64,000 bases of DNA, taken from Fibrobacter sp. (GTDB lineage: Bacteria; Fibrobacterota; Fibrobacteria; Fibrobacterales; Fibrobacteraceae). The notes below the pieces were generated by a model that ran no database searches, was not told the DNA's origin, and saw nothing but the letters and a program-made list of their open reading frames with translations. The stretch is from NCBI GenBank assembly GCA_024399015.1, contig JAKSIC010000002.1, positions 132,732-196,731 of the forward strand, given 5' to 3'. The translations under genes and the position numbers were made by a program. Each line of letters begins with the position of its first letter. Positions within the stretch are counted from its first letter, which is position 1. This document shows positions 5,278-43,248 of this stretch, piece by piece.

Positions 5278-5347
5278 CAGTGGTTAGTAAACAGTGGTTA
5301 GTAAACAGTAATCACTAACCACTAGCCACCAACCACTAGCCACTAAA
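5278..5347. repeat. Tandem heptamer array, ten units
   Basis: The whole gap between the aminotransferase and potA reads as ten 7-nt units in one phase: CAGTGGT TAGTAAA twice, CAGTAAT, then CACTAAC CACTAGC CACCAAC CACTAGC CACTAAA. The first half is roughly the inverse complement of the second (AGTGGTTAGT against ACTAACCACT), so it can fold back. It ends one base before the potA ATG and leaves no room for a Shine-Dalgarno. Confidence 0.85.
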
Positions 5348-5348
5348 T

Positions 5349-6434
5349 ATGAAATCTTTCGATCTTCAGGTTAAGAACGTTTCCAAGAGCTTCGGACCTA
5401 AGTCCGTACTCAAGGGAATTGATGTTTTCATCAAGGATGGAGAATTCGTTACCTTGCTTGGTCCTTCCGGCTGCGGCAAGACTACCCTCCTCCGCATTAT
5501 TGCAGGCTTCGAAAAGGCCGATGCTGGCGAAGTCATTCTCGGCGGCGAAGTCATTTCCAACAAGTCTCCGGCACACCGTCCTATTAACACGGTGTTCCAG
5601 AGCTATGCATTGTTCCCCCATCTGAGCGTCTACAACAACATCGCATTCGGTCTCAAGAGCCACAAGGTTCCCAAGGACGAAATCGAGAAGCGTGTAAACG
5701 CCATGATGGAAACCGTGAACATCACGGACTTGGCAAACGAAATGCCCGCCACCTTGAGCGGTGGTCAAAAGCAGCGTGTAGCCCTCGCCCGCGCCCTGGT
5801 GAACGAGCCGGACATCCTGCTCCTGGATGAGCCCCTCAGCGCCCTTGACGCAAACCTCCGCAAGAAATTGCAGGTGGAACTCCGCGAAGTGCAGAAGAAG
5901 ACTGACACAACCTTCATTATGGTCACCCACGACCAGGACGAAGCAATTGCTGTTTCCGATCGTGTTCTCGTGATGCACAAGGGTGAAATTGTTCAGGACG
6001 GCAGTCCCGAAGATGTTTACGAACATCCGGTCAATCGTTTTGTTGCAACCTTCATCGGCGAAGCCAACATCCTTGAATGCGAAAAGGTTGCAGACGACAA
6101 AGTCGCTTGCGCTTTCGGCGAACTGGTTGTTGAGAAGAAACCTGAATGGAACGCAAACGAATCCGGCAAGTGCTGCGGCGGTGTAGCTATCCGCATGGAA
6201 GACATCCACGTTTGCACTCCCAGCGAAAGCTTTACAAACAACGTATTCGACGCACGTATTCTGGAACGTATCTTCCGCGGTGACTACTGGGAACTGATTG
6301 CAGAACTTCCCGGCGTAGGCGCCAACAAGAGTTTGCAGCTCCGCGTCATGACTGACCCCGACGAAATCTACAACGCCGGCGATCAAGTCAAGCTTTATAT
6401 TGAACCGCAATACCTGCAGGTTCTGGCTGACTAA
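5349..6434 (+). CDS. potA: ABC transporter ATP-binding protein, PotA type
   Basis: 361 aa. Walker A GPSGCGKTT (38-46), ABC signature LSGGQKQR near 136, Walker B ILLLDEP near 157 and the switch His in MVTHDQDEA are all present, followed by a C-terminal TOBE-like domain (from about residue 240) as in PotA and other spermidine/putrescine or ferric-iron importers. It would power the PotBC permease. The gene sits 1.6 kb away from potBCD, separated by an SPFH gene, two terminators and a tRNA, so the transporter genes are not one simple transcription unit. The start is immediately behind a heptamer repeat array and shows no Shine-Dalgarno. Confidence 0.9.
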   Translation: MKSFDLQVKNVSKSFGPKSVLKGIDVFIKDGEFVTLLGPSGCGKTTLLRIIAGFEKADAGEVILGGEVISNKSPAHRPINTVFQSYALFPHLSVYNNIAFGLKSHKVPKDEIEKRVNAMMETVNITDLANEMPATLSGGQKQRVALARALVNEPDILLLDEPLSALDANLRKKLQVELREVQKKTDTTFIMVTHDQDEAIAVSDRVLVMHKGEIVQDGSPEDVYEHPVNRFVATFIGEANILECEKVADDKVACAFGELVVEKKPEWNANESGKCCGGVAIRMEDIHVCTPSESFTNNVFDARILERIFRGDYWELIAELPGVGANKSLQLRVMTDPDEIYNAGDQVKLYIEPQYLQVLAD

Positions 6435-32701: not shown

Positions 32702-33826
32702 TTACATTCCCTTAAGCCACAGAGCAAAGAACCTGTCGTAAACAACATACCCCTTTGGCGTTTGCATCACATATTCCTTGTCCAGCAAATACTCCAAGGC
32801 ACGATTAACGCAGCTAGCCGTTTTCAACCCACTATTCTTTACAAATTCACCGGAATTAATAGCAGAAACACAGCCCGCAAGCGCAATGGACAAAAGCAGA
32901 CGATTTTGGTTAAAAGTCAAGACATTCTGCATTCGTTGATAAATATCCATCTCGGACACCATGATTTTGCGAACACACATATTGACATCGTCCAGGCAAA
33001 CCACTTTTGGTGCCATCTCGTAAAGACGATTCAGCACCGCCTGCATATACCAAGTATGCCCTTCTAATCGTTCATACAAGGCATCAAAGCAGTCTCTAGG
33101 CAAATTGATCTCAGCCTTTTTCATCCAACCATTGGCAAATTCATAGTACGCCTTTTTTTCAATAGCATATAGATGAAACATTTCAGTGCTGCGGTAAAAT
33201 GGATGCCCCACGGAGCTAAACATTTCGGACATCAAATGATGCTTGCTACCCGAAAAAATGAAATGAACATTCGGGCAGAACTGGACATACGAACGTAACA
33301 AAGCCTCTACAGTTTCATCACCATATTCCGAAATCTGCTGGAATTCATCAACAGCGATAAAACATTCCCTTTCTGAATTTTTCAAGTATGAAAATATATC
33401 AGACAAAGTATTCTTCGTTTCTTTAGGATGAAAATCAAGTGCCGGCTGAAGGTTACCCGTCACAGGATCAACGGACATAGTCAACTTACAACTTTTGAAA
33501 ACGGAGACCGCCGCATTCAAGGCCTTCTTGCCCAAGCCGTCTAAAGTACCCAGAACAACTTTACCCAGCAAAACAACAAAATCTTCAAGAGACCTTGTTG
33601 GATAGATATCCACATAGAAACAAGCTGAATTTTTATCTCGTTTCTTAATTTCATCAAACACCCGCATAATAAGACCTGTCTTTCCCATGCGGCGAGGACT
33701 CAGCAAGGTAACATTTCGCCCATTCTTTAATGCAGAAATCAGCTGTTCCGTTTCAGAAACACGATCACAGAAATACTTTGGACCTGCGTAGCCATATACA
33801 AAAAATGGATTTACATTTTTACTCAT
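32702..33826 (-). CDS. AAA ATPase, archaeal-type / P-loop protein
   Basis: 374 aa. P-loop SPRRMGKT (43-50), Walker B FIAVDEFQQI near 173 and a sensor-like FSGSKHHLM near 205 give an AAA ATPase of the archaeal-type ATPase group. The C-terminal 90 residues look like a winged helix (AINSGEFVKNSGLKTASCVN pattern near 330). Relatives are often linked to mobile or defence loci, but their roles are poorly defined. The start is ATG 33826 (MSKNVNP), 6 nt after a TATATT box (33838-33833 on the minus strand). A 39-bp perfect palindrome lies directly upstream of that box. Confidence 0.78.
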   Translation of the reverse strand: MSKNVNPFFVYGYAGPKYFCDRVSETEQLISALKNGRNVTLLSPRRMGKTGLIMRVFDEIKKRDKNSACFYVDIYPTRSLEDFVVLLGKVVLGTLDGLGKKALNAAVSVFKSCKLTMSVDPVTGNLQPALDFHPKETKNTLSDIFSYLKNSERECFIAVDEFQQISEYGDETVEALLRSYVQFCPNVHFIFSGSKHHLMSEMFSSVGHPFYRSTEMFHLYAIEKKAYYEFANGWMKKAEINLPRDCFDALYERLEGHTWYMQAVLNRLYEMAPKVVCLDDVNMCVRKIMVSEMDIYQRMQNVLTFNQNRLLLSIALAGCVSAINSGEFVKNSGLKTASCVNRALEYLLDKEYVMQTPKGYVVYDRFFALWLKGM

Positions 33827-33840
33827 AACTACAATATACA

Positions 33841-33879
33841 AAAATTACACATTTTGCGTAACGCAAAATGTGTAATTTT
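33841..33879. promoter_or_regulatory. 39-bp perfect palindrome, probable operator of the ATPase gene
   Basis: Arms of 19 bp, AAAATTACACATTTTGCGT and its exact complement, around a single central base (33860). It occupies the -35/upstream region of the ATPase promoter. Such a site could be bound by a dimeric repressor, or form a hairpin. The window contains no obvious cognate regulator unless the ATPase's own winged helix binds it. Confidence 0.65.
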
Positions 33880-34019
33880 CATTTTAAAACCGAAAATATT
33901 ACAGAAGATTCGCCATCAATATTGCAATCAACAATCATGAGTACGATGCAGTTGGCAGACCGCATTTCAATATTAATCAAAGAATTTCTTTTTTCATGAC
34001 CGCCAGAAGGCTTTTACGG

Positions 34020-34044
34020 AACTACCGGCCTAGCCGGTAGTTTT
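34020..34044. terminator. Hairpin/terminator 1 before the pilin operon end
   Basis: AACTACCGGC (34020-34029) / GCCGGTAGTT (34033-34042), 3-nt loop, then TT. Perfect 10-bp stem. It can act on either strand. Confidence 0.6.
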
Positions 34045-34056
34045 CGGTTATACAAG

Positions 34057-34083
34057 AAAGCCTCCCCGAAGGGTGGCTTTTTT
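34057..34083. terminator. Hairpin/terminator 2 before the pilin operon end
   Basis: AAAGCC-t-CCC-CGAA-GGG-t-GGCTTT then TTT on the plus strand; on the minus strand it is followed by TTTCTTGT. It lies 70 bp beyond the stop of the giant pilin gene. Confidence 0.65.
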
Positions 34084-34151: not shown

Positions 34152-37100
34152 TTACCACGCGTTAAAGTTCATTTCAACATCTCCATCAGGAACGATGAAC
34201 ACATTACATGTGCCTCCCCAGATGTTAACATCAAATTCATTCCAAGAACCTTTTTCGCTTGATATTGTAATACTTCCTAAAGAACCATCACACTTTTTGA
34301 TGCTGATGGTGACCGGATTACTTCCAGACAAGCGTTCCAGCCTAAGTTTCACTCCATTATACTTGTACGGTATGTTGACGTAGTAACCGGTATTCTTTTC
34401 CATGTTAACATGCTGTGATGGGGCGTTATCTCTATTTTCAACAGTACCTATATTTGTTGAATTTCCTGTGTTACAACTAGAAGCGTCTGTAATGCCAGCA
34501 CTTACAGTCAATGTTCCACAATTATCCCCGGTTCCAAGAACATCAATTGTCACTGAGTAATCGCCGGTGCGGGGATCGGCAATGCCGCTAAATGATGCAG
34601 TCCCATTATTTACCGAACAACTATAAGGATAACCATTAATTGTAACAAAACATTCACTACCATTGGGAGCGTTAGTCGTTGCAGAAACGTCAAACGATCC
34701 ACGTGCACTTACTGTCAAAGGAGACAGGCCACATCCCGAAACGGTCACGTTTTCCACCACATTCACCTGCTTGGAGCAAATTTCCTGGGTGTAAGGCTTT
34801 GCATGACCATAGCAGAGATAGTAGTTGCCAGAGCCACTTGTAGGTTCAAACGACTGACTAATGTCACCCATAAGTGTAGCCTCCGTACCTTCAATCAACG
34901 TGCCGCTATTGCCACAACCGCCAGCATAGATTGCGTACTTCAAGTTCGCATCATATTCGCTGAGGCTAGCTTCAATCTTCGGCAAGGTACCGTTCTTCAC
35001 GTATGTGGTCGGGGTTTCATCACAAGAGAAACCATCCTTAACAGTAGCCTTTTTCTTTACAGTTACATACTGCACGCAAGACTTTGTTGTTCCATTGACA
35101 GATGACTTTGCGGTAAAGGTCAACGGTTCATTTTGCATTTCGCTGTTGAATGTGATAGAGTAGCTATTCCTACCAGAGAGCGTACATGCTACCCTATCGC
35201 TAGCATTGCTGGAGTTGTGACCCGCGCCATCAAAGGAACATTCATTCGTATTATCCAAGTCAGCGGAGAAGGTCACTCGGTCTCCCTGATACACGACCAG
35301 AGGATCCGTAGAGACATTTCTGTTTACACCATTCAACTGGCAGTTGCTCAGGTTGAATGCCGACGGGCAACTAGACTGAATATTACCAATGTGGAAGAAG
35401 GTACCATAGTTGTTATCGTTTGCATCTTCTGTGTTACCCATCCAGTCGGATCGATTATAAGCAGCTGCTATTTTGGCATCAAAATTAGCTTCGTTTTCAT
35501 CGTTAAGTCTCTTATACACCTTAGTCGGGTATTCCTCCATGCGAGAAGGCTTATTTTCTAACCGGTAATAAACCCTAGACACACGATCCGGCTTAAACAT
35601 CACTGAATCCAAGGACATATCGACTTTAACGGAAACGCGCCTATTCACCGGAGTGTCGCCACCCTTGGCATCTCTCCACCAGATTAGGCCTCGCTGACAA
35701 CAATCGTAAGCTGTATAAACCCTACTGTCGTGTGTTTTACCATTGTAAGTAACCTTCTCCATATGGTATGAGGTCGCTCCAGACTTTCTCCAAAAATCAA
35801 CAAAATATCCATTCTCATCCTTAGGGTTTTCATCTCTATATCTGTCAATTACTTTAACCGGTATGGTCGCATCGTACTTAAGAGTAATGTGTTCTTCACA
35901 GTTATTTACACGATAAAAATCAGCACTATGGCAATAGCTGGACAATCCATACTTACCATTGGTTTCAGGACCAGGTGTATGACCATCCACTTCCATACCA
36001 GCCATGTAATTCACGGAATCCAAGGGTATATGGCGAGATTCACCGCCATCTGTATCCACAAACCAATATTCAATTGCAGTTGCATTATTGGGCTGCAAAA
36101 TGTCGAAACTGAAGGTTGCACCATTCAAGTTCAAACGATAGGAACCCGTCACAGAATCGCGAAGCTGGATGTACTTGGTCGTTTCGCCCCAAGTCCACTT
36201 ACCCGTATTGTCAATGGAAACCTTAATCAAGTCAGGATTTTTCACCGTACCTAATTCGCCCGACTTGTAAGGATGAATCAAAGTTCCAGAAGGATTATTA
36301 GTCCACCCAGTACATTCTCCATCGGCATTTCGTGCTGTACACTGAGAATTATCGCCAATCCAATATTTGCAAGTAGTACCGTCTAATTTCTTTTCTCCAC
36401 ACATAGTATTTGCACCCTGGTCTTGAATATAATGGAATCCACCCCCCAAATAGACATTCGTGTACATGCCCTTTTCGCTAACGCCACCATTATTTAAGCC
36501 ACGATAAGAGTAAGTAGAATCAAAGCCAGAAATTTCACTACCATAGAGGTAAATATACGGGTAACCACGTCTCTGCTCATACTGGTTATCAACAAAGATG
36601 TGGTATGAATCCGTGCACATATTCTCATCGGAACCACGATCGTAGGTACTGAAGGCAGCACAAGGGGCTCGACCAACCCAGTTTTCCTTATAGTGCCTAA
36701 TACCATTGGCATCTTCATAGCCCAACAAGTCCTTACATTCCATCTTTACCTGCAAGGCTCCCTTACCATAGGTTGCTACACTGCGGAATGTCCCATCCCA
36801 CTTAGAACCATTAAGGTAGAAGGTGGGGGTACATTCGCATTCACCCCCATCAGGGCAGTAGTCTGTTACATAAGCCTTGGGGCGATCCTTTGTGTTGATT
36901 GCCACATAGGGATTATCGTACCCGCAGTAAATCGATGGTTCAGTGGTGGTACCTTCTTCACAGTTACCACCGCTGCGCCAGCTGACGTTATAGAACTTTA
37001 CCACTGCAGAATGAACATTGAAACCCACATAACGGTGGCTTGCAGTATCATTCCTCATTGCAGTAATCGGATTATCGGGCCTAGAATAGTGGAATACTTC

Positions 37101-40100
37101 CGGATCTTCCAGATTAACATGATAATCACTATAAACCATATTGGCACCATCATCGCTTTCGTAGGCAAGTTCGATATCAGCATAGGGACCGTCCAAATCC
37201 ACGGTGACCTGGATAGTCTTACCAACCAATTGATTGAACGGAATGTTCGTTTTTACCTTTTCCCAGGTGCAATGGCCAAGGTTATCGACACCACCCTCAT
37301 TGCGGTAATATCCGTTCTCTTCACGAGCATACTTTTCACCATATATAGCAGTGGAATCTGGGTTGCCTGCAGTTTCCCATCCTGGCGACCAACCCTTAAT
37401 ACCAAGTTCGTAGTAAGGATGCTTTGAATAGCAGTAACCCTCAGTACAGTGACATAATTGAAGGTGGGCTGTATTGGTTGTGGTAGATGACACCACATTG
37501 CTGAATATGAGAGTATCACCTTCAGGATCGTAAGTCACATTAGAGTATTCATTATGTTTGTCTCCCGCCGGATCAATAGCCAATGTAAAGAAAGATGTAA
37601 GGTCGGAATTCGCTCGGAAAATGAGGGATGTTTTTGAACCCCAGGACTCAATACCCTCGGATCCAGTGATTTTAATGGTTTCACGCAAGGTTCCATTATA
37701 ACCAGCCTGATGCTTACGAAGCATCATCTGCTGAACCTTATTTTTGCTGTTGTAAGCGTGGGTGGCGTATCCCAAATCACGATTGATAAAGGGTTTCTCG
37801 TTCCATTGAGTACTTTTGGAAGGACGCATAGGACCTCCCTTAGGCTGCTGAACACCTTGAGTCATTATCACCTTGAGCCAGGGGGACAAGGTATCATCTT
37901 GTGCATAATAGCCACCCTTAATACGAGGAGCGTCAAGAACGGGTGGATGACTATCCACTTTTTCCTCGCAGCAACGAGGGTTAGAAGTAGAACACGTATC
38001 AGGCAAACAAAAATCTTGCTTAACACCTCGATAGTGGCGATCGATAGCATTGTATTTTCCAAGTTCTCTTTCACCAGGGTCAAAGTAACTCCAAACCGAG
38101 TCTTCCTTTTCTGCCACAGAGCGCCTATCCATATAATTATGTGGATCCAGTTCACTCAATGTTTCGCCTTCCACATCGCAGTAAATACCATAATAATGGG
38201 AGTAGTTTGTTCCCGCGGTTTTCGGCGCACCATAAGCTTCTTGCACATTATAGTTTTCTTGCGTATAACGATAGAACTTATTAGAAACACACTGGTCAAT
38301 ACAGTATTTGGCTTGATAACCATTTTCAGCAGTAGCTGGCTCACGGCCAAAATCTCTCATGGCAACCCTAATAGGATTATGCTGAGCGCGATCCAATCTT
38401 ACAAAACCACCTTCCGCAACTGAATATACCGAACCCTCTACTGCAAATTGGTTATAATCACTACCCAAGTTCGCAAACCATCCTCCATTTGACCCGTTAG
38501 TACCAGCAGCCTTATCTTTGTATGTCGTAGCATTCGATTTCACGCCGCCCAAATATGCACCAGACACTTCCCTATCACAATAAGAATAGAGATTCTTGAA
38601 GTCTTCCACAAAGCAGTAGCCCGCATTGGTGAAGTAGGCGATAATCGTCATGTTGCCTTCGGGGCGAATTGTGATTCTTCGGTTATTAATGTCAGTCAGG
38701 CTGTTATCGCTACTGGACCAATGATTGAAATTTCTACCAGTTGCACGGGCATAGTACGTTTCATCATAATAAACAGTAAACGAGCACTTTCCAGCGTTAC
38801 CTGTTTTACAAGTACCCATGTAGTTGTTGTTACTATCGTAAATGGAAACATCAAAGTCTTCGTCGTCACCCTTGCCGTCGTCAGAAGGATCTCCTTTCAG
38901 GACATGAGCACTTCCCTTTAGGCCAGAAATTTTTACCGTAAGGGTATAATGACGTTTCTTAAGAGAGGCATAAGCCATCGTTACAGATCCATTGACAATC
39001 ACCGGGAAATTTTCCTGGCGGACAATGCATTTCTTTTCATCAAAACCACTGGCCTTCATGTAAGCCCTAGGATTAGCCTTACCTTCGATGTCGCATTCCC
39101 AAGGACCAGTAGCTTTGTCAAAGCCGCTACCTTCGTTACACCCCTCATTTCCGTCAATGTAGGCGCCCCAACTTACACCATTTTCGCCTATAGCACTTTC
39201 ATCACAGTCGGGAATCTGGGACAAGGTATCCAATACAGCAGGGAGTATGTAAGGATCGGCAGAAAGTTCACCCCTCTTCACGATACCCTTAGCAGAACCA
39301 AACATCACGAGTTCATTACTGGGGTTACCCGTTGTAAACTCATCAGAATAATCTTCATCTTCAAGCTTAAACTGAATGGATCCAGTTGCAGAGCCACAGT
39401 CATTTACAATAATATTAAACGGAGTAATCTGAGAAACACCGTCTGCTACGGTAAGTTCATATATAATTGCATCGTCGGTAACTGCTTTCTGAGACATGGA
39501 ATAACCTGTTCCAGACAAGCTGGTAACAAAGTCAATAGCAGACTTGTTGCTTTGGTCATAAACCGTCAATTTCAGTTTGCCACCCTTCTGCTTGGGGATA
39601 TTTATGCTAACCTGCTTGGTATTCTCCGCCTGGCAACGCTCACTATCCAGCATATAGTACAACACGTCGAAAGAGGCTAGCGATGTGGCGCCTTCGTCTA
39701 CAACATACACCCAGAATTTAGATTTTTCCGAACCTTCCTCGTAAACACAGGTATGAATACCATTAACCTTGAATGGCGAGGATTCGGAGACAGTCGTTCC
39801 AGAACTTTCGCTGGAACCAACATGACACACGGCCGAACCATTACCTGGGGCGAGTCCGCCAAGATACATCACTGAATATGCCTTTTTACCATTGTGATTC
39901 AGCATACTATCAACGTTTGTATAAATAACACGAGGTATCACCACTAACGCAGGTTCCAAAGATTCTACCTTATCCTGGTCCACCACCTCATTGTTTACAT
40001 ACTGCGTTGCAAGGTCAATTTTCAACTGAGGAGCAAAGGGGACCCACGGCTCCGAATTTACTTCAGGTTCTTCTGTCGAAGATTCAGAACCCGATGTTGA

Positions 40101-41978
40101 AGAAGTGGAAGTCGAGGATCCATCGCGATTTTCCGCACAAGAAGCGCCAGCACTATAATCGCAAATCGCCCCAGCATCACTCAAAGCATCTATGATCGTT
40201 TGGTCAAATTCAAGGTTCAAGGTACTTGGCAAACTACCCAGTTTAGCGCAACTTGCAGCCTCCGCATAAACAGAGCCCTTTAGAGTTCCATTATTCTTGA
40301 TATTATCAATATCGCCCTTCGTATAAATGAAGTATCCATAATTACCGGTGTCGCCTTTTTCAAGTTCAATAGCACCAGCGCCATTCTTAAGGAAAATCAA
40401 GACCGACTTGCCTTCAGTCGTCTGAGGAAGTTTCATTGTGTTAGGACGTTCTTCAAAAATGAAAATAAAATTTCCATTTAAAATACTATTTCCTGTATTT
40501 TCAAAGGCGTTGACATCATTAGGCTTAACAACCATAAATCCGCCATTTCCATACAAATCCGAGCTTTTCTTATCTGTAGCGGCGTAAATGGCATTCAATT
40601 TACCAATAGCGTCGTTGTCGCGCCATTGTGTACTTCCCCAAGTTACAATATCAGAAACAGTAACGCCCCCAGAAGCAGTAGTTACCGCATTAGCCTTGGA
40701 TTCGAAATTACCAAGAGAAATCATGTCTTGTATGGTAAACTTGGAGCCAGAGCAAGTCTTTTCAGCCTTTTTATCAAAGAGGGTCATGCAATAATCTTTG
40801 GCAACGTGCTGGCATGTGTGCGAGAACGCAGCACCCACATGTTTATCATTACTGTTGGAAATAAAGCAAAGATTACTAACCCCATCCTTACATACATTTC
40901 CGTTATTTTCGCTAAAACCTTCGCCAAGATGCAAAGATGAAGACTGTCGAGAAGTTAACCAGGCTGTAGTCCCCCCTATATAACCATCGATGCTGGACCC
41001 ACGCGGTATCCACACATCACCAACGGCGTTAAACGGATGATTTCTGTTAAAATTGAATTTGCCATTATCCGTCAAACAAAGTTCTTCACTGAAGATAATA
41101 TCGTGGCCTCCAAGAGCATCATTAACGCGGCCATTAAACGAAGCGTTTCCACCAAAAGTAACGTTGAAGTTGCCTGCTAAATCCACATCACCTTCAAAAT
41201 ACGAAGTGCCTCCCACATTACCCCTAATAGTAGATTTCGTTTTGGTATCGCTTTCGCCAGCAACATAGACATCCTTAAGGTCAGTTCCGTCGTTATTCAT
41301 CTCAATGTGACCACCAACGCAAGTTGTTCCACCCACAGATATGGCGCCACCACTGACAATATTCAGATTACCTGTAACAACGACATCTTCTTCAACAGAA
41401 GCTGCTTCACCGGATGCATTATAATCACCATTGATTAAAAGCGATGTTTTCTTATGGCCACCACCATTAATAGACAAGGAACCGCCAAAGTAGGAGTACT
41501 TGAACTTGGATTTTTTTGCAGTGGTTGGCGGATTGATTTGATAAAGGCCAGTCACCTTAAGAATGGCAACCTGACTATACTTAGAATTATCTCTGCCACT
41601 GCCCGTAGAAATCAACTTCAGTTTAATAGAACCACCTTCAGGCACGGCCTCGGTCGCGACCACAGTATAACTTTGGTTTCTACCGCTTGTCATGGCGGTC
41701 AGCTTGCTGCCAAGATCAACAACAACACCATTCTCACGACCATTCATGAGCTGGGTCACAAGGCCCGCGGTTTCCTCGCCATTATAGGCAAGCCATGCTC
41801 GAGCAGCATTAAGGCCAGCCTGTGAAGCCTGGTATGCCTCAGACTGTTTCAATCGAGAAGCGCTAGCGCGTTCCGCTGAATTCAACCACTTATAGACAGC
41901 CGTTGCAGCAATCGTCGCAATGGTCATGAATAAAAGAACCGTTACAAGGGCAACGCCCTTCTTTCCTTTCCAAAACAT
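34152..41978 (-). CDS. Giant PilX/GspK-like minor pilin with a ~2,500-aa extracellular extension
   Basis: 2608 aa. MFWKGKKG precedes a hydrophobic helix VALVTVLLFMTIATIAATAV, a type IV prepilin/pseudopilin N-terminus; there is no Glu at +5, as in GspK. ATG 41978 is chosen over 41996 because GGAGG stands 8 nt upstream. After the pilin part come beta-solenoid-like Gly/Asn repeats (about 165-295) and a Ser/Thr/Glu linker near 620-640. The remaining 1,960 residues are Cys-rich beta modules with many Trp and Tyr, ending in a domain containing KGSWNEFDVNIWGGTC. The giant part probably stands on the cell surface at a pilus tip, as an adhesin. I could not assign named domains to it. Confidence 0.8.
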   Translation of the reverse strand: MFWKGKKGVALVTVLLFMTIATIAATAVYKWLNSAERASASRLKQSEAYQASQAGLNAARAWLAYNGEETAGLVTQLMNGRENGVVVDLGSKLTAMTSGRNQSYTVVATEAVPEGGSIKLKLISTGSGRDNSKYSQVAILKVTGLYQINPPTTAKKSKFKYSYFGGSLSINGGGHKKTSLLINGDYNASGEAASVEEDVVVTGNLNIVSGGAISVGGTTCVGGHIEMNNDGTDLKDVYVAGESDTKTKSTIRGNVGGTSYFEGDVDLAGNFNVTFGGNASFNGRVNDALGGHDIIFSEELCLTDNGKFNFNRNHPFNAVGDVWIPRGSSIDGYIGGTTAWLTSRQSSSLHLGEGFSENNGNVCKDGVSNLCFISNSNDKHVGAAFSHTCQHVAKDYCMTLFDKKAEKTCSGSKFTIQDMISLGNFESKANAVTTASGGVTVSDIVTWGSTQWRDNDAIGKLNAIYAATDKKSSDLYGNGGFMVVKPNDVNAFENTGNSILNGNFIFIFEERPNTMKLPQTTEGKSVLIFLKNGAGAIELEKGDTGNYGYFIYTKGDIDNIKNNGTLKGSVYAEAASCAKLGSLPSTLNLEFDQTIIDALSDAGAICDYSAGASCAENRDGSSTSTSSTSGSESSTEEPEVNSEPWVPFAPQLKIDLATQYVNNEVVDQDKVESLEPALVVIPRVIYTNVDSMLNHNGKKAYSVMYLGGLAPGNGSAVCHVGSSESSGTTVSESSPFKVNGIHTCVYEEGSEKSKFWVYVVDEGATSLASFDVLYYMLDSERCQAENTKQVSINIPKQKGGKLKLTVYDQSNKSAIDFVTSLSGTGYSMSQKAVTDDAIIYELTVADGVSQITPFNIIVNDCGSATGSIQFKLEDEDYSDEFTTGNPSNELVMFGSAKGIVKRGELSADPYILPAVLDTLSQIPDCDESAIGENGVSWGAYIDGNEGCNEGSGFDKATGPWECDIEGKANPRAYMKASGFDEKKCIVRQENFPVIVNGSVTMAYASLKKRHYTLTVKISGLKGSAHVLKGDPSDDGKGDDEDFDVSIYDSNNNYMGTCKTGNAGKCSFTVYYDETYYARATGRNFNHWSSSDNSLTDINNRRITIRPEGNMTIIAYFTNAGYCFVEDFKNLYSYCDREVSGAYLGGVKSNATTYKDKAAGTNGSNGGWFANLGSDYNQFAVEGSVYSVAEGGFVRLDRAQHNPIRVAMRDFGREPATAENGYQAKYCIDQCVSNKFYRYTQENYNVQEAYGAPKTAGTNYSHYYGIYCDVEGETLSELDPHNYMDRRSVAEKEDSVWSYFDPGERELGKYNAIDRHYRGVKQDFCLPDTCSTSNPRCCEEKVDSHPPVLDAPRIKGGYYAQDDTLSPWLKVIMTQGVQQPKGGPMRPSKSTQWNEKPFINRDLGYATHAYNSKNKVQQMMLRKHQAGYNGTLRETIKITGSEGIESWGSKTSLIFRANSDLTSFFTLAIDPAGDKHNEYSNVTYDPEGDTLIFSNVVSSTTTNTAHLQLCHCTEGYCYSKHPYYELGIKGWSPGWETAGNPDSTAIYGEKYAREENGYYRNEGGVDNLGHCTWEKVKTNIPFNQLVGKTIQVTVDLDGPYADIELAYESDDGANMVYSDYHVNLEDPEVFHYSRPDNPITAMRNDTASHRYVGFNVHSAVVKFYNVSWRSGGNCEEGTTTEPSIYCGYDNPYVAINTKDRPKAYVTDYCPDGGECECTPTFYLNGSKWDGTFRSVATYGKGALQVKMECKDLLGYEDANGIRHYKENWVGRAPCAAFSTYDRGSDENMCTDSYHIFVDNQYEQRRGYPYIYLYGSEISGFDSTYSYRGLNNGGVSEKGMYTNVYLGGGFHYIQDQGANTMCGEKKLDGTTCKYWIGDNSQCTARNADGECTGWTNNPSGTLIHPYKSGELGTVKNPDLIKVSIDNTGKWTWGETTKYIQLRDSVTGSYRLNLNGATFSFDILQPNNATAIEYWFVDTDGGESRHIPLDSVNYMAGMEVDGHTPGPETNGKYGLSSYCHSADFYRVNNCEEHITLKYDATIPVKVIDRYRDENPKDENGYFVDFWRKSGATSYHMEKVTYNGKTHDSRVYTAYDCCQRGLIWWRDAKGGDTPVNRRVSVKVDMSLDSVMFKPDRVSRVYYRLENKPSRMEEYPTKVYKRLNDENEANFDAKIAAAYNRSDWMGNTEDANDNNYGTFFHIGNIQSSCPSAFNLSNCQLNGVNRNVSTDPLVVYQGDRVTFSADLDNTNECSFDGAGHNSSNASDRVACTLSGRNSYSITFNSEMQNEPLTFTAKSSVNGTTKSCVQYVTVKKKATVKDGFSCDETPTTYVKNGTLPKIEASLSEYDANLKYAIYAGGCGNSGTLIEGTEATLMGDISQSFEPTSGSGNYYLCYGHAKPYTQEICSKQVNVVENVTVSGCGLSPLTVSARGSFDVSATTNAPNGSECFVTINGYPYSCSVNNGTASFSGIADPRTGDYSVTIDVLGTGDNCGTLTVSAGITDASSCNTGNSTNIGTVENRDNAPSQHVNMEKNTGYYVNIPYKYNGVKLRLERLSGSNPVTISIKKCDGSLGSITISSEKGSWNEFDVNIWGGTCNVFIVPDGDVEMNFNAW

Positions 41979-41979
41979 A

Positions 41980-43248
41980 TTATTCCTCCGTTCCATTATC
42001 CGGTGTCGGAATCATTTTCTTAATACGGGTCGTTTCCTTTCCGTACTTAAGAGCCAAATTCAAATTAAAGGCTTTAACCTTTTTCTTTTCTTCTTTGTCG
42101 TTAAGGTTAAAATCAACAAAAGAATACTCAGCTTCGTCTCTTAACGTAACAGCAAACTTAGAAACAGTCAAAGATCCCTTCCAAACCAAGGGAGAGAACA
42201 GGGCTATCGTAAAGGCCAAGCACACGTCATCCGTCTGCTGAGGTACACTAAATTCCACATAGCGATTGTAGTCGTCATTCGATTCAGACGGATACACCAT
42301 AAAGTCGGGAGCATACGGAATAATATTTCCGTCCGGCTTACGAAGACCAATGCTTATATGATCTGTTCCTGGTAAGAAATCTCGCATAAAGTTTGGATTG
42401 GCATTCGAAGCAAAGGCCACCAGCTGAAAAGCTATAGCATAAGTCTTATATGGTTCGAACTTAAACTTCACACACTTTTTCCAATCAAAGTCTCCACCTG
42501 TGGGATTTCCATCCAGCAAATACAATTGCGATGCAACCTTTTCACTACCCGTATTGGAAGAAAACTGAGAGAGTGCAACATTGCTGCCGCTAGCAAAAGA
42601 CTCAATTCGCATAAAGCCCGAACCAGTTCTTGGAGCTAAAGCAAAACTATTCCCTAGAGCGAAATACCCCTTTGCCGGATAATAGGTTGCGGCATCAGTT
42701 TTAAAATCGGCATCTTGCAAACGACGACCAGGGGTTAGAGAAAATTCTTCCACCTTATCACTAATCAAAACTTCAAAAGACGAACCTTCGTCCTTATGAG
42801 GACAGTCCGAAGGATAACTGGTGATGGAGGTCGACTTAATTTCCAGAGACTGACATGATCTATAAAGTTTTTTTCCATCCAGCCTCCATTTAATCAGCTG
42901 GGAATATTCAGCAACACCATTTTTATCATAAACCAATTTTTTAAAACTAATCTCATCTTTCGATGCATTCAGAGCAAACGACGAATGATCCGAATTGGCG
43001 TCATCATAAAACACATCAGTTTCCAACTTGTTAGAGCCATCGGTCAAGACAAACTTCGCACCCATTTGGCTTAGATCTTCCGCAATCATCTGCGAAAGAT
43101 TATCAGCCTCGGTAGTTCCCTGAAGCATGTTTTCCGTGCGAACACGGAACTTCGTACTATCGCTGAAAGCCTGACCGGCGACTATCACAATAATGCCAAT
43201 AAGGCCCATATACACGAGCAATTCTATTAAAGTAAAGCCTCTTTTCAT
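41980..43248 (-). CDS. PilW-like minor pilin
   Basis: 422 aa. MKRG then FTLIELLVYMGLIGIIVIVA is a classical prepilin leader and N-methylated helix with Glu at +5. The long C-terminal domain includes a beta-rich region and the LSQFSSNTGSEKVASQL-type stretch near 225; it is larger than typical PilW (about 350). It should be cleaved by the prepilin peptidase and assembled with the neighbouring pilins. It overlaps the PilV-like gene by 4 bp and ends just before the giant gene. Confidence 0.85.
   Translation of the reverse strand: MKRGFTLIELLVYMGLIGIIVIVAGQAFSDSTKFRVRTENMLQGTTEADNLSQMIAEDLSQMGAKFVLTDGSNKLETDVFYDDANSDHSSFALNASKDEISFKKLVYDKNGVAEYSQLIKWRLDGKKLYRSCQSLEIKSTSITSYPSDCPHKDEGSSFEVLISDKVEEFSLTPGRRLQDADFKTDAATYYPAKGYFALGNSFALAPRTGSGFMRIESFASGSNVALSQFSSNTGSEKVASQLYLLDGNPTGGDFDWKKCVKFKFEPYKTYAIAFQLVAFASNANPNFMRDFLPGTDHISIGLRKPDGNIIPYAPDFMVYPSESNDDYNRYVEFSVPQQTDDVCLAFTIALFSPLVWKGSLTVSKFAVTLRDEAEYSFVDFNLNDKEEKKKVKAFNLNLALKYGKETTRIKKMIPTPDNGTEE

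Follow-up and report, generated by a model that had tools for sequence, protein, structure and literature searches.

Why should the promoter of an ATPase gene contain a long and perfect palindrome? A sequence-only reading of the Fibrobacter DNA studied here, a stretch of 64 kb that we refer to as the window, had described a 39-bp palindrome in the promoter of an AAA ATPase, and had proposed that it was either an autoregulatory operator or a recent inverted duplication with a function in recombination. Based on comparisons with relatives of the ATPase, we consider it probable that the palindrome is an autoregulatory operator, which the ATPase would bind and through which it would control its own promoter.

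The Palindrome and the Promoter of the ATPase Gene

The features of the locus that are relevant to this question are as follows (all on the minus strand, positions of the window).

32702-33826: ATPase gene, 374 residues, ATG at 33824-33826, stop included (ORF, PF01637 profile and relatives)
32705-32914: C-terminal winged-helix domain (residues 305-374), the proposed DNA-binding part (AlphaFold2 model; HosA profile match)
32801-32803: Arg342 codon, recognition helix, the residue associated with box base 3 (association tests)
33833-33838: -10-like TATATT (sequence; 34 nt from the box start, as in L004, L006, and L057)
33841-33879: 39-bp perfect palindrome, proposed operator (repeat search; sole copy within 3 mismatches in the genome, 31-nt core pattern)
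33848-33858: box 2, CGCAAAATGTG, in the opposite orientation to box 1 (box analysis)
33856-33861: place of the -35 hexamer (TTACGC), given a 17-nt spacer to the -10; weak match (inferred from sequence)
33859-33861: 3-nt spacer TTA, center of the palindrome (repeat search and box analysis)
33862-33872: box 1, CACATTTTGCG, a 14-bp-phased unit (box analysis)

The repeat search confirmed the 39-bp palindrome, with arms of 19 nt each (33841-33859 and 33861-33879) that were 100% complementary and had 1 nt between them. Its perfect arms were the longest among the nine inverted repeats listed for the window (arms of at least 14 nt, up to 80 nt apart), the runner-up being a perfect pair of 15 nt. By simple arithmetic, the chance that all 19 pairs match around a particular center is about 0.25^19, which gives about 2e-7 over 64 kb. 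The composition of the palindrome is TTA CACATTTTGCG TTA CGCAAAATGTG TAA.

Read along the strand of the gene, the end of the palindrome is followed by 2 nt, TATATT (33833-33838), GTAGTT (33827-33832), and the ATG (33824-33826). The spacing given by the sequence-only reading was correct in placing TATATT 6 nt before the ATG, but its distance of 3 nt between the palindrome and TATATT is in fact 2 nt. With the usual 17-nt spacer, the place of the -35 hexamer would be at the palindrome center, and a transcript from TATATT would begin near the ATG, downstream of the palindrome. An in-frame TTG at 33841 represents an alternative start for the gene; in three of the five homologs next in score after that of G009 an in-frame TAG was present between the TTG position and the ATG, which makes the ATG the likelier start.

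Further genomic copies, for which the sequence-only reading had suggested a search, were sought in the genome to which the window belongs, and there was no second strong site. With up to 3 mismatches allowed, the 31-nt core pattern identified no second copy of the palindrome in the genome (3.34 Mb). A 13-nt half-site, with 1 mismatch tolerated, had one other genomic place, compared to 5 control matches, and the 19-nt core had five other places, each at 3 mismatches, compared to one control place. Protein searches of the same genome identified no paralog of the ATPase, and the four weaker PF01637 matches in it were all below the cut-off.

The ATPase and Its Predicted DNA-Binding Domain

Profile searches bore out the description of the gene behind this promoter as an ATPase gene, as its product matched PF01637 (ATPase_2) with a score of 34.3 bits against a cut-off of 33.2, and five diverse relatives scored 35.0-45.3 bits. 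G48, K49, D160, and E161 were invariant among 28 aligned proteins; we take SPRRMGKT to be the Walker A motif and VDEFQ to be the Walker B motif. The AlphaFold2 model of the protein (mean pLDDT 88.2, pTM 0.82) comprised an ATPase domain followed by a winged helix at the C terminus, the latter with pLDDT values of 88-94 and a predicted recognition helix at residues 337-349. In addition, the C-terminal part matched the MarR-type regulator HosA (profile positions 277-349, E 0.0059). The best solved folds for the model were 2qen and 2fna (Z 23), followed by Orc1/Cdc6 proteins (some DNA-bound), TnsC/MuB, and STAND proteins, and alignments to NLR and CED-4 chains extended over residues 10-374 with Z of about 15-18. 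The protein terminates at its winged helix, with no separate sensor domain seen beyond it.

Two other identities for the ATPase were considered and dropped. A phage origin for the protein was discarded as there was no match to PHROG profiles at E 0.01; among viral contigs, 3 of the 54 pattern matches encoded an ATPase relative. An anti-phage defense gene (PADLOC PDC-S01) was rejected on the basis that the matches were partial, of 37 and 86 residues only (E 3e-5 and 8e-5), and six relatives gave a weak match to PDC-S01 or none.

Sites Upstream of Related ATPase Genes

Protein searches identified homologs of the ATPase in 29 of 60 related genomes. The sequence-only reading had regarded absence of the palindrome from relatives with the same gene, together with a lack of protein binding, as evidence against it; however, in most relatives a site was found to be retained at this position, with its sequence varying by subfamily. 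In the closest copy (G009, 94% identity) the palindrome was kept with one mismatched pair. The 60%-identical copies L004-L006 had CGCATTTTGCG-TTA/TAA-CGCATTTTGCG, with outer arms in inverted orientation but inner boxes that form a direct repeat. Distant subfamilies had very different, yet equally regular, sites, e.g., TTTAACATTTTG-TATATT-ACAAAATGTTAAA in L017, and the upstream site of L011 is a 41-nt palindrome. Many relatives had direct repeats instead of a single hairpin (L086, L095, L101, and L107), and tandem arrays of at least four units occurred (L008). Most homologs in Fibrobacter, Bacteroidales, Kiritimatiellae, and Lentisphaerae had a repeat array of their own at this position.

A scan of species genomes revealed at least 573 relatives, of which 80 were kept. 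Among the matches listed, the nearest relatives outside Fibrobacter were Bacteroidales, with up to 55% identity, whereas other subfamilies inside Fibrobacter had about 22-36% identity to the focal ATPase. That the Bacteroidales proteins are nearer than other Fibrobacter subfamilies suggests the ATPase family may have been exchanged horizontally within gut communities, with contaminated metagenome bins a possible alternative source of this closeness. Nine members of full length, from B. fragilis, Parabacteroides gordonii, Hallella bergensis, and B. oleiciplenus, were inspected by eye, and several of them had their own sites.

Even longer perfect palindromes were observed upstream of family ATPases at L144 (59 nt, 27-nt arms) and L142 (54 nt, 25-nt arms), whose hosts are Bacteroides oleiciplenus and Parabacteroides gordonii. 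At L007 and L058, a homolog of 66% identity was missing about its first 53 residues, and neither a start codon nor an array could be assigned upstream, giving the appearance that the site and the gene start had been lost together.

Repeats in the Promoters of the Family Mostly Have a Period of 14 bp

To describe these sites as a group, upstream regions of 110 nt from 101 family genes, after deduplication, were compared with 233 other upstream regions from the same loci and with 1010 dinucleotide shuffles. The 101 genes were derived from 124 loci, 118 of which had a start and enough upstream sequence, by removal of 17 near-duplicates. A repeat score of at least 10 was reached by 79 of the 101 family loci, 43 of the 233 controls (which may include other family ATPases), and 9.3% of the 1010 shuffles; for a score of at least 12 the corresponding values were 58/101, 18/233 (with the same reservation about the controls), and 1.6%. 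The higher repeat scores of the family's own promoters had a Mann-Whitney p of 8e-28. At 12 of the 101 family loci no repeat reached a score of 9.

The best direct-repeat offset in the 75 loci with a clear repeat was 14 bp in 46, 28 bp in 8, and 15 bp in 7. The mean autocorrelation was highest at 14 (z 11.9) and lower at 9 (4.2) and 28 (3.9), and the commonest spacing of dyad centers was 7.0 bp. Based on the 14-bp period and the 7.0-bp dyad spacing, the usual unit is an 11-bp quasi-palindromic box with a 3-nt spacer. Exceptions to the 14-bp period were subfamily-specific, with a spacing of 39 bp in L023, L024, and L026, and of 15 bp in L027, L029, and L030.

Elsewhere in the window, at 5279-5347, AGTGGTTAGTAAAC (a 14-nt unit) recurred in imperfect copies, both direct and inverted. 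These copies immediately precede a gene for an ABC-transporter ATPase (5349-6434), which is outside the focal ATPase family.

Residue 342 of the Recognition Helix Is Associated with Base 3 of the Box

The register of the boxes was set from the DNA alone, with a threshold at 99% of shuffles, and could be assigned at 66 of the 101 loci and not at the other 35. When box base 3 was compared with 324 variable protein columns, residue 342 ranked first, with an excess information of 0.73 compared to 0.49 for the next column. Base 3 was C in 11 of 14 loci with R342 and in 7 of 8 with K342, A in 9 of 10 with S342, G or T in 16 of 19 with T342, and T in 8 of 9 with L or Q342, the overall rule pairing L, Q, and V with T. 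The focal protein has R342, and base 3 is C in both of its half-site types (CAC and CGC). Under a second, more neutral scoring, by which 52 of the 101 loci were assigned, the base-3 rule was right in 45 of 51 cases (17.7 expected) and residue 342 was again first. Residue 342 ranked 2 of 374 in a test of the CA/CG class.

As the residue-342 pattern had been spotted by eye ahead of the first ranking, new loci were tested. Held-out set 1 consisted of 66 Bacteroidales-order loci, largely of other subfamilies (after exclusion of six weak partial matches, L143 and L146-L150, and then of 2 unusable loci and 5 near-duplicates from 73). With the first scoring, a stricter two-base rule was right in 9 of 17 loci of set 1 (4.5 expected; 11 of 5000 permutations). 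With the second scoring there was no support from this set, the base-3 rule being right in 11 of 14 (9.6 expected; 802 of 5000) and residue 342 ranking 48 of 338; R and S were the sole residue-342 types among these 14. Held-out set 2 was drawn from the G062 family and comprised 80 loci, from 90 among the matches listed (an initial 30 loci and 60 further matches) less 2 partial and 8 duplicates. In this set, 27 loci were assigned by the first scoring, with the two-base rule right in 10 of 21 (3.9 expected; 6 of 5000) and residue 342 ranking 1 of 322. The second scoring assigned 29 loci, with the base-3 rule right in 19 of 25 (8.1 ± 2.3 expected; 0 of 5000) and a rank of 2 of 326. The association between residue 342 and base 3 was replicated in set 2, and set 1, which is less diverse, gave mixed support.

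A further test used pairs of loci whose connecting paths on the tree did not overlap, the pairs being chosen greedily at a tree distance of at least 0.15. Identity at residue 342 went with identity at base 3 in these pairs (22/9/5/13; p 0.007, rank 1 of 374), as it did under the second scoring (21/3/8/9; p 0.013, rank 3 of 374); the pair-test p values (about 0.004-0.013) are uncorrected and would fail a correction for 374 columns. The partial effects of protein similarity on operator similarity were 0.086 for the winged helix and 0.119 for the ATPase domain, values that are about equal and constitute weak evidence.

CGC-type boxes and a NASS(I/V)(S/N)R helix occurred together in the focal clade and also in L067 and L071, which are elsewhere on the ATPase-domain tree. 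The boxes and recognition helix of L067 and L071 were almost identical to those of the focal clade even with their ATPase domains placed apart, a likeness that would reflect either convergence or a joint exchange of helix and site.

Position of the Boxes on Promoters

TAnnTTTG, which we take to be the Bacteroidetes -7 motif, was present in 33 of the 54 non-Fibrobacter loci with an assigned box and absent from 21. The box started 3-5 nt after TAnnTTTG in 17 of these 33 loci, and 11-19 nt after it in 10 more. Boxes within -33 to +20 of the motif numbered 27, compared to 19.5 expected with random box placement. In the Fibrobacter loci L012, L013, L016, L019, and L031, TATATT was within the array and TTGAC was upstream, an arrangement in which occupancy of the array would hinder the start of transcription.

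Genomic Context of the ATPase Genes

In 18 of 21 within-genome paralog pairs there was no common upstream stretch scoring above 11.5. The three exceptions (22, 15, and 12), and a median upstream score for within-genome pairs (8.0) close to that for between-genome pairs (9.0), count against the model given below. At 105 loci, the next downstream gene had the same orientation as the ATPase gene in 52 cases, 23 of them within 50 nt, and the opposite orientation in another 52; one locus had no such gene. As judged by orientation and distance only, the 52 of 105 on the same strand speak against a fixed downstream partner, and the variable downstream context fits a regulator acting upon its own gene.

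The window and G009 have a 1213-bp block in common, and an upstream neighbor gene and an IS200-type sequence were common to G000 and G009. A reading of the ATPase gene as a moving unit was dropped for the G009 pair because of these common upstream features. The 60-66%-identical copies in G004, G006, G019, and G035 had no flank in common with the window, which alone is no proof of movement.

In two species pairs, homology among close relatives ended a few bases from the ATPase stop codon (window 32696; L034 9917), with the upstream side shared. The 3' flank of the ATPase gene resembles a variable spot, at which G009 has an OLD-like TOPRIM/AAA_15 gene. Between the ATPase promoter and a long neighbor gene was a remnant of an IS200-type left end (window 33925-34083; L032 7254-7850), with 94% identity over 139 bp and an Rfam STnc490 match below the cut-off; at this place G009 has a Y1_Tnp transposase gene and an rve-type transposase gene. 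A 2614-aa open frame on the minus strand (34152-41996) had, by eye, a prepilin-like N-terminus and no Pfam match at E 0.001.

A Model for Autoregulation and Its Alternatives

From the site, its periodicity, its position, and the protein-DNA association, all of which were obtained by comparison, we infer physical binding, repression rather than activation, an oligomer, and a role for ATP. The ATPase would consist of a P-loop ATPase domain at its N terminus and, at its C terminus, a winged helix acting as the reader of the DNA. Several subunits would lie side by side, with their winged helices on half-sites of alternating orientation, in a 14-bp repeat with dyads 7 bp apart. These subunits would cover the -35 region and the spacer directly upstream of TATATT, shutting off transcription of their own gene; repression is the most likely sign of control because the array lies on the promoter. 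The nucleotide state of the ATPase, or a ligand, may set the occupancy of the array, and the operator and recognition helix would have changed together in each subfamily, so that each ATPase would mostly read its own promoter. The operator proposed by the sequence-only reading is supported by a site that is kept in relatives and whose sequence appears to follow a recognition-helix residue, with mixed results in set 1. Its recombination alternative is not supported, as the G009 copy has the same upstream neighbor, direct repeats take the place of a palindrome in many relatives, and no second copy was found in the genome.

The ATPase could also bind the array with another main job, either activating its own gene or nucleating an initiator- or filament-like complex for replication, partition, or target marking. 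The fold in common with Orc1/Cdc6 proteins and two DNA-bound ATPases, TnsC and MuB, together with the tandem arrays of four or more units as in L008, would be in keeping with such a job, which we nevertheless consider unlikely, as boxes are on or just past promoter elements in many loci and partition would be poorly served by only one site in a genome. The GC skew had no switch over 20-48 kb, which makes a replication origin there less likely. Control of the ATPase gene by another regulator that binds the palindrome is very unlikely. Long palindromes usually bind dimeric regulators, and binding by the ATPase is a prediction; however, the sequence of the site varies between ATPase subfamilies and according to residue 342, and the same-strand downstream gene at only half of the loci (52/105, as judged by orientation) is also contrary to this idea.

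A recent inverted duplication or template switching could have produced the palindrome as a mutational accident, or it could be part of a mobile unit. The unusually perfect arms, the single mismatched pair in G009, the end of homology at the 3' end of the gene in two species pairs, and the lack of a common flank in G004, G006, G019, and G035 would all accord with such an origin, but the neighbor gene and IS200-type sequence common to G000 and G009 and the presence of related sites at the same place in 60%-identical relatives render it highly improbable. Scarcely credible is a cis-acting RNA hairpin or cruciform: good folding would be expected of a perfect stem of 19 bp, but L086, L095, L101, and L107 have direct repeats rather than one hairpin, and TATATT as the -10 would put the start of transcription downstream of the palindrome. 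An Rfam search at the palindrome gave two micro-RNA models far below their cut-offs, reflecting the stem alone, and an RNA element was dropped as a candidate.

If autoregulation by the ATPase is correct, a large ATPase family of gut and rumen bacteria, most of whose members are unnamed, would acquire a testable activity in the form of sequence-specific binding to the promoters of their own genes. With the residue-342/base-3 code, this prediction is precise enough for an exchange of one amino acid and one base, and the predicted ATP-dependent regulators, being naturally distinct, could be useful for gene circuits in Bacteroidales. We further speculate, as a doubtful extension, that these AAA+/STAND-like ATPases, a widespread family of which some genomes have several, are largely insulated self-reading modules, each of which polymerizes or assembles on a private 14-bp-periodic array, with a code close to one residue for one base. 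The array would then be an assembly platform and sensor switch (similar to an initiator or apoptosome) and more than a site for repression.

Comparison with Known Systems

The promoter repeats of this ATPase family were not described in the top-ranked matches among open-licence PubMed Central papers. The closest proteins of known structure are the PF01637 members SSO1545 (2fna) and PAB2304 (2qen), which the ATPase matched by profile (E 3e-20 and 2e-13) and by fold over the whole length, including the winged helix (Z 23). Unlike the focal bacterial ATPase, both are archaeal, and they are compared here by sequence and fold. Orc1/Cdc6 proteins (2qby and 2v1u) likewise have an AAA+ domain and a winged helix, were solved with DNA, and matched the fold with Z of 18-19. 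These initiators bind repeated origin sites. Their role is in archaeal origin recognition, whereas the sites of the focal family are in promoters and no link to replication was seen (GC skew, 20-48 kb). The fold of the ATPase would tie transcription control to Orc1/Cdc6 and the STAND machines.

The passages on SSO1545 in PMC5760070 and PMC4599002 refer to it as a structural reference only. The mycobacterial IniR has, like the focal ATPase, an AAA+ ATPase domain, which its authors likened to SSO1545, and is described as binding the iniBAC promoter and inducing transcription (PMC5760070). Unlike the focal ATPase, IniR has 818 residues and combines a MalT-like domain with a DNA-binding domain that is SdiA-like; the target described for it is iniBAC, and the term "autoregulat" is absent from the main text of that paper (PMC5760070). 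For the LacI family, Camas et al. (2010, PMC2978694) described a residue-to-base code derived from sites that lie close to the genes of the regulators themselves (local regulation). That code is one of two residues and two bases (PMC2978694), whereas a P-loop ATPase with a winged helix and one residue for mainly one base is proposed here. IniR and the LacI recognition code are the nearest precedents for the ATPase and its palindrome.
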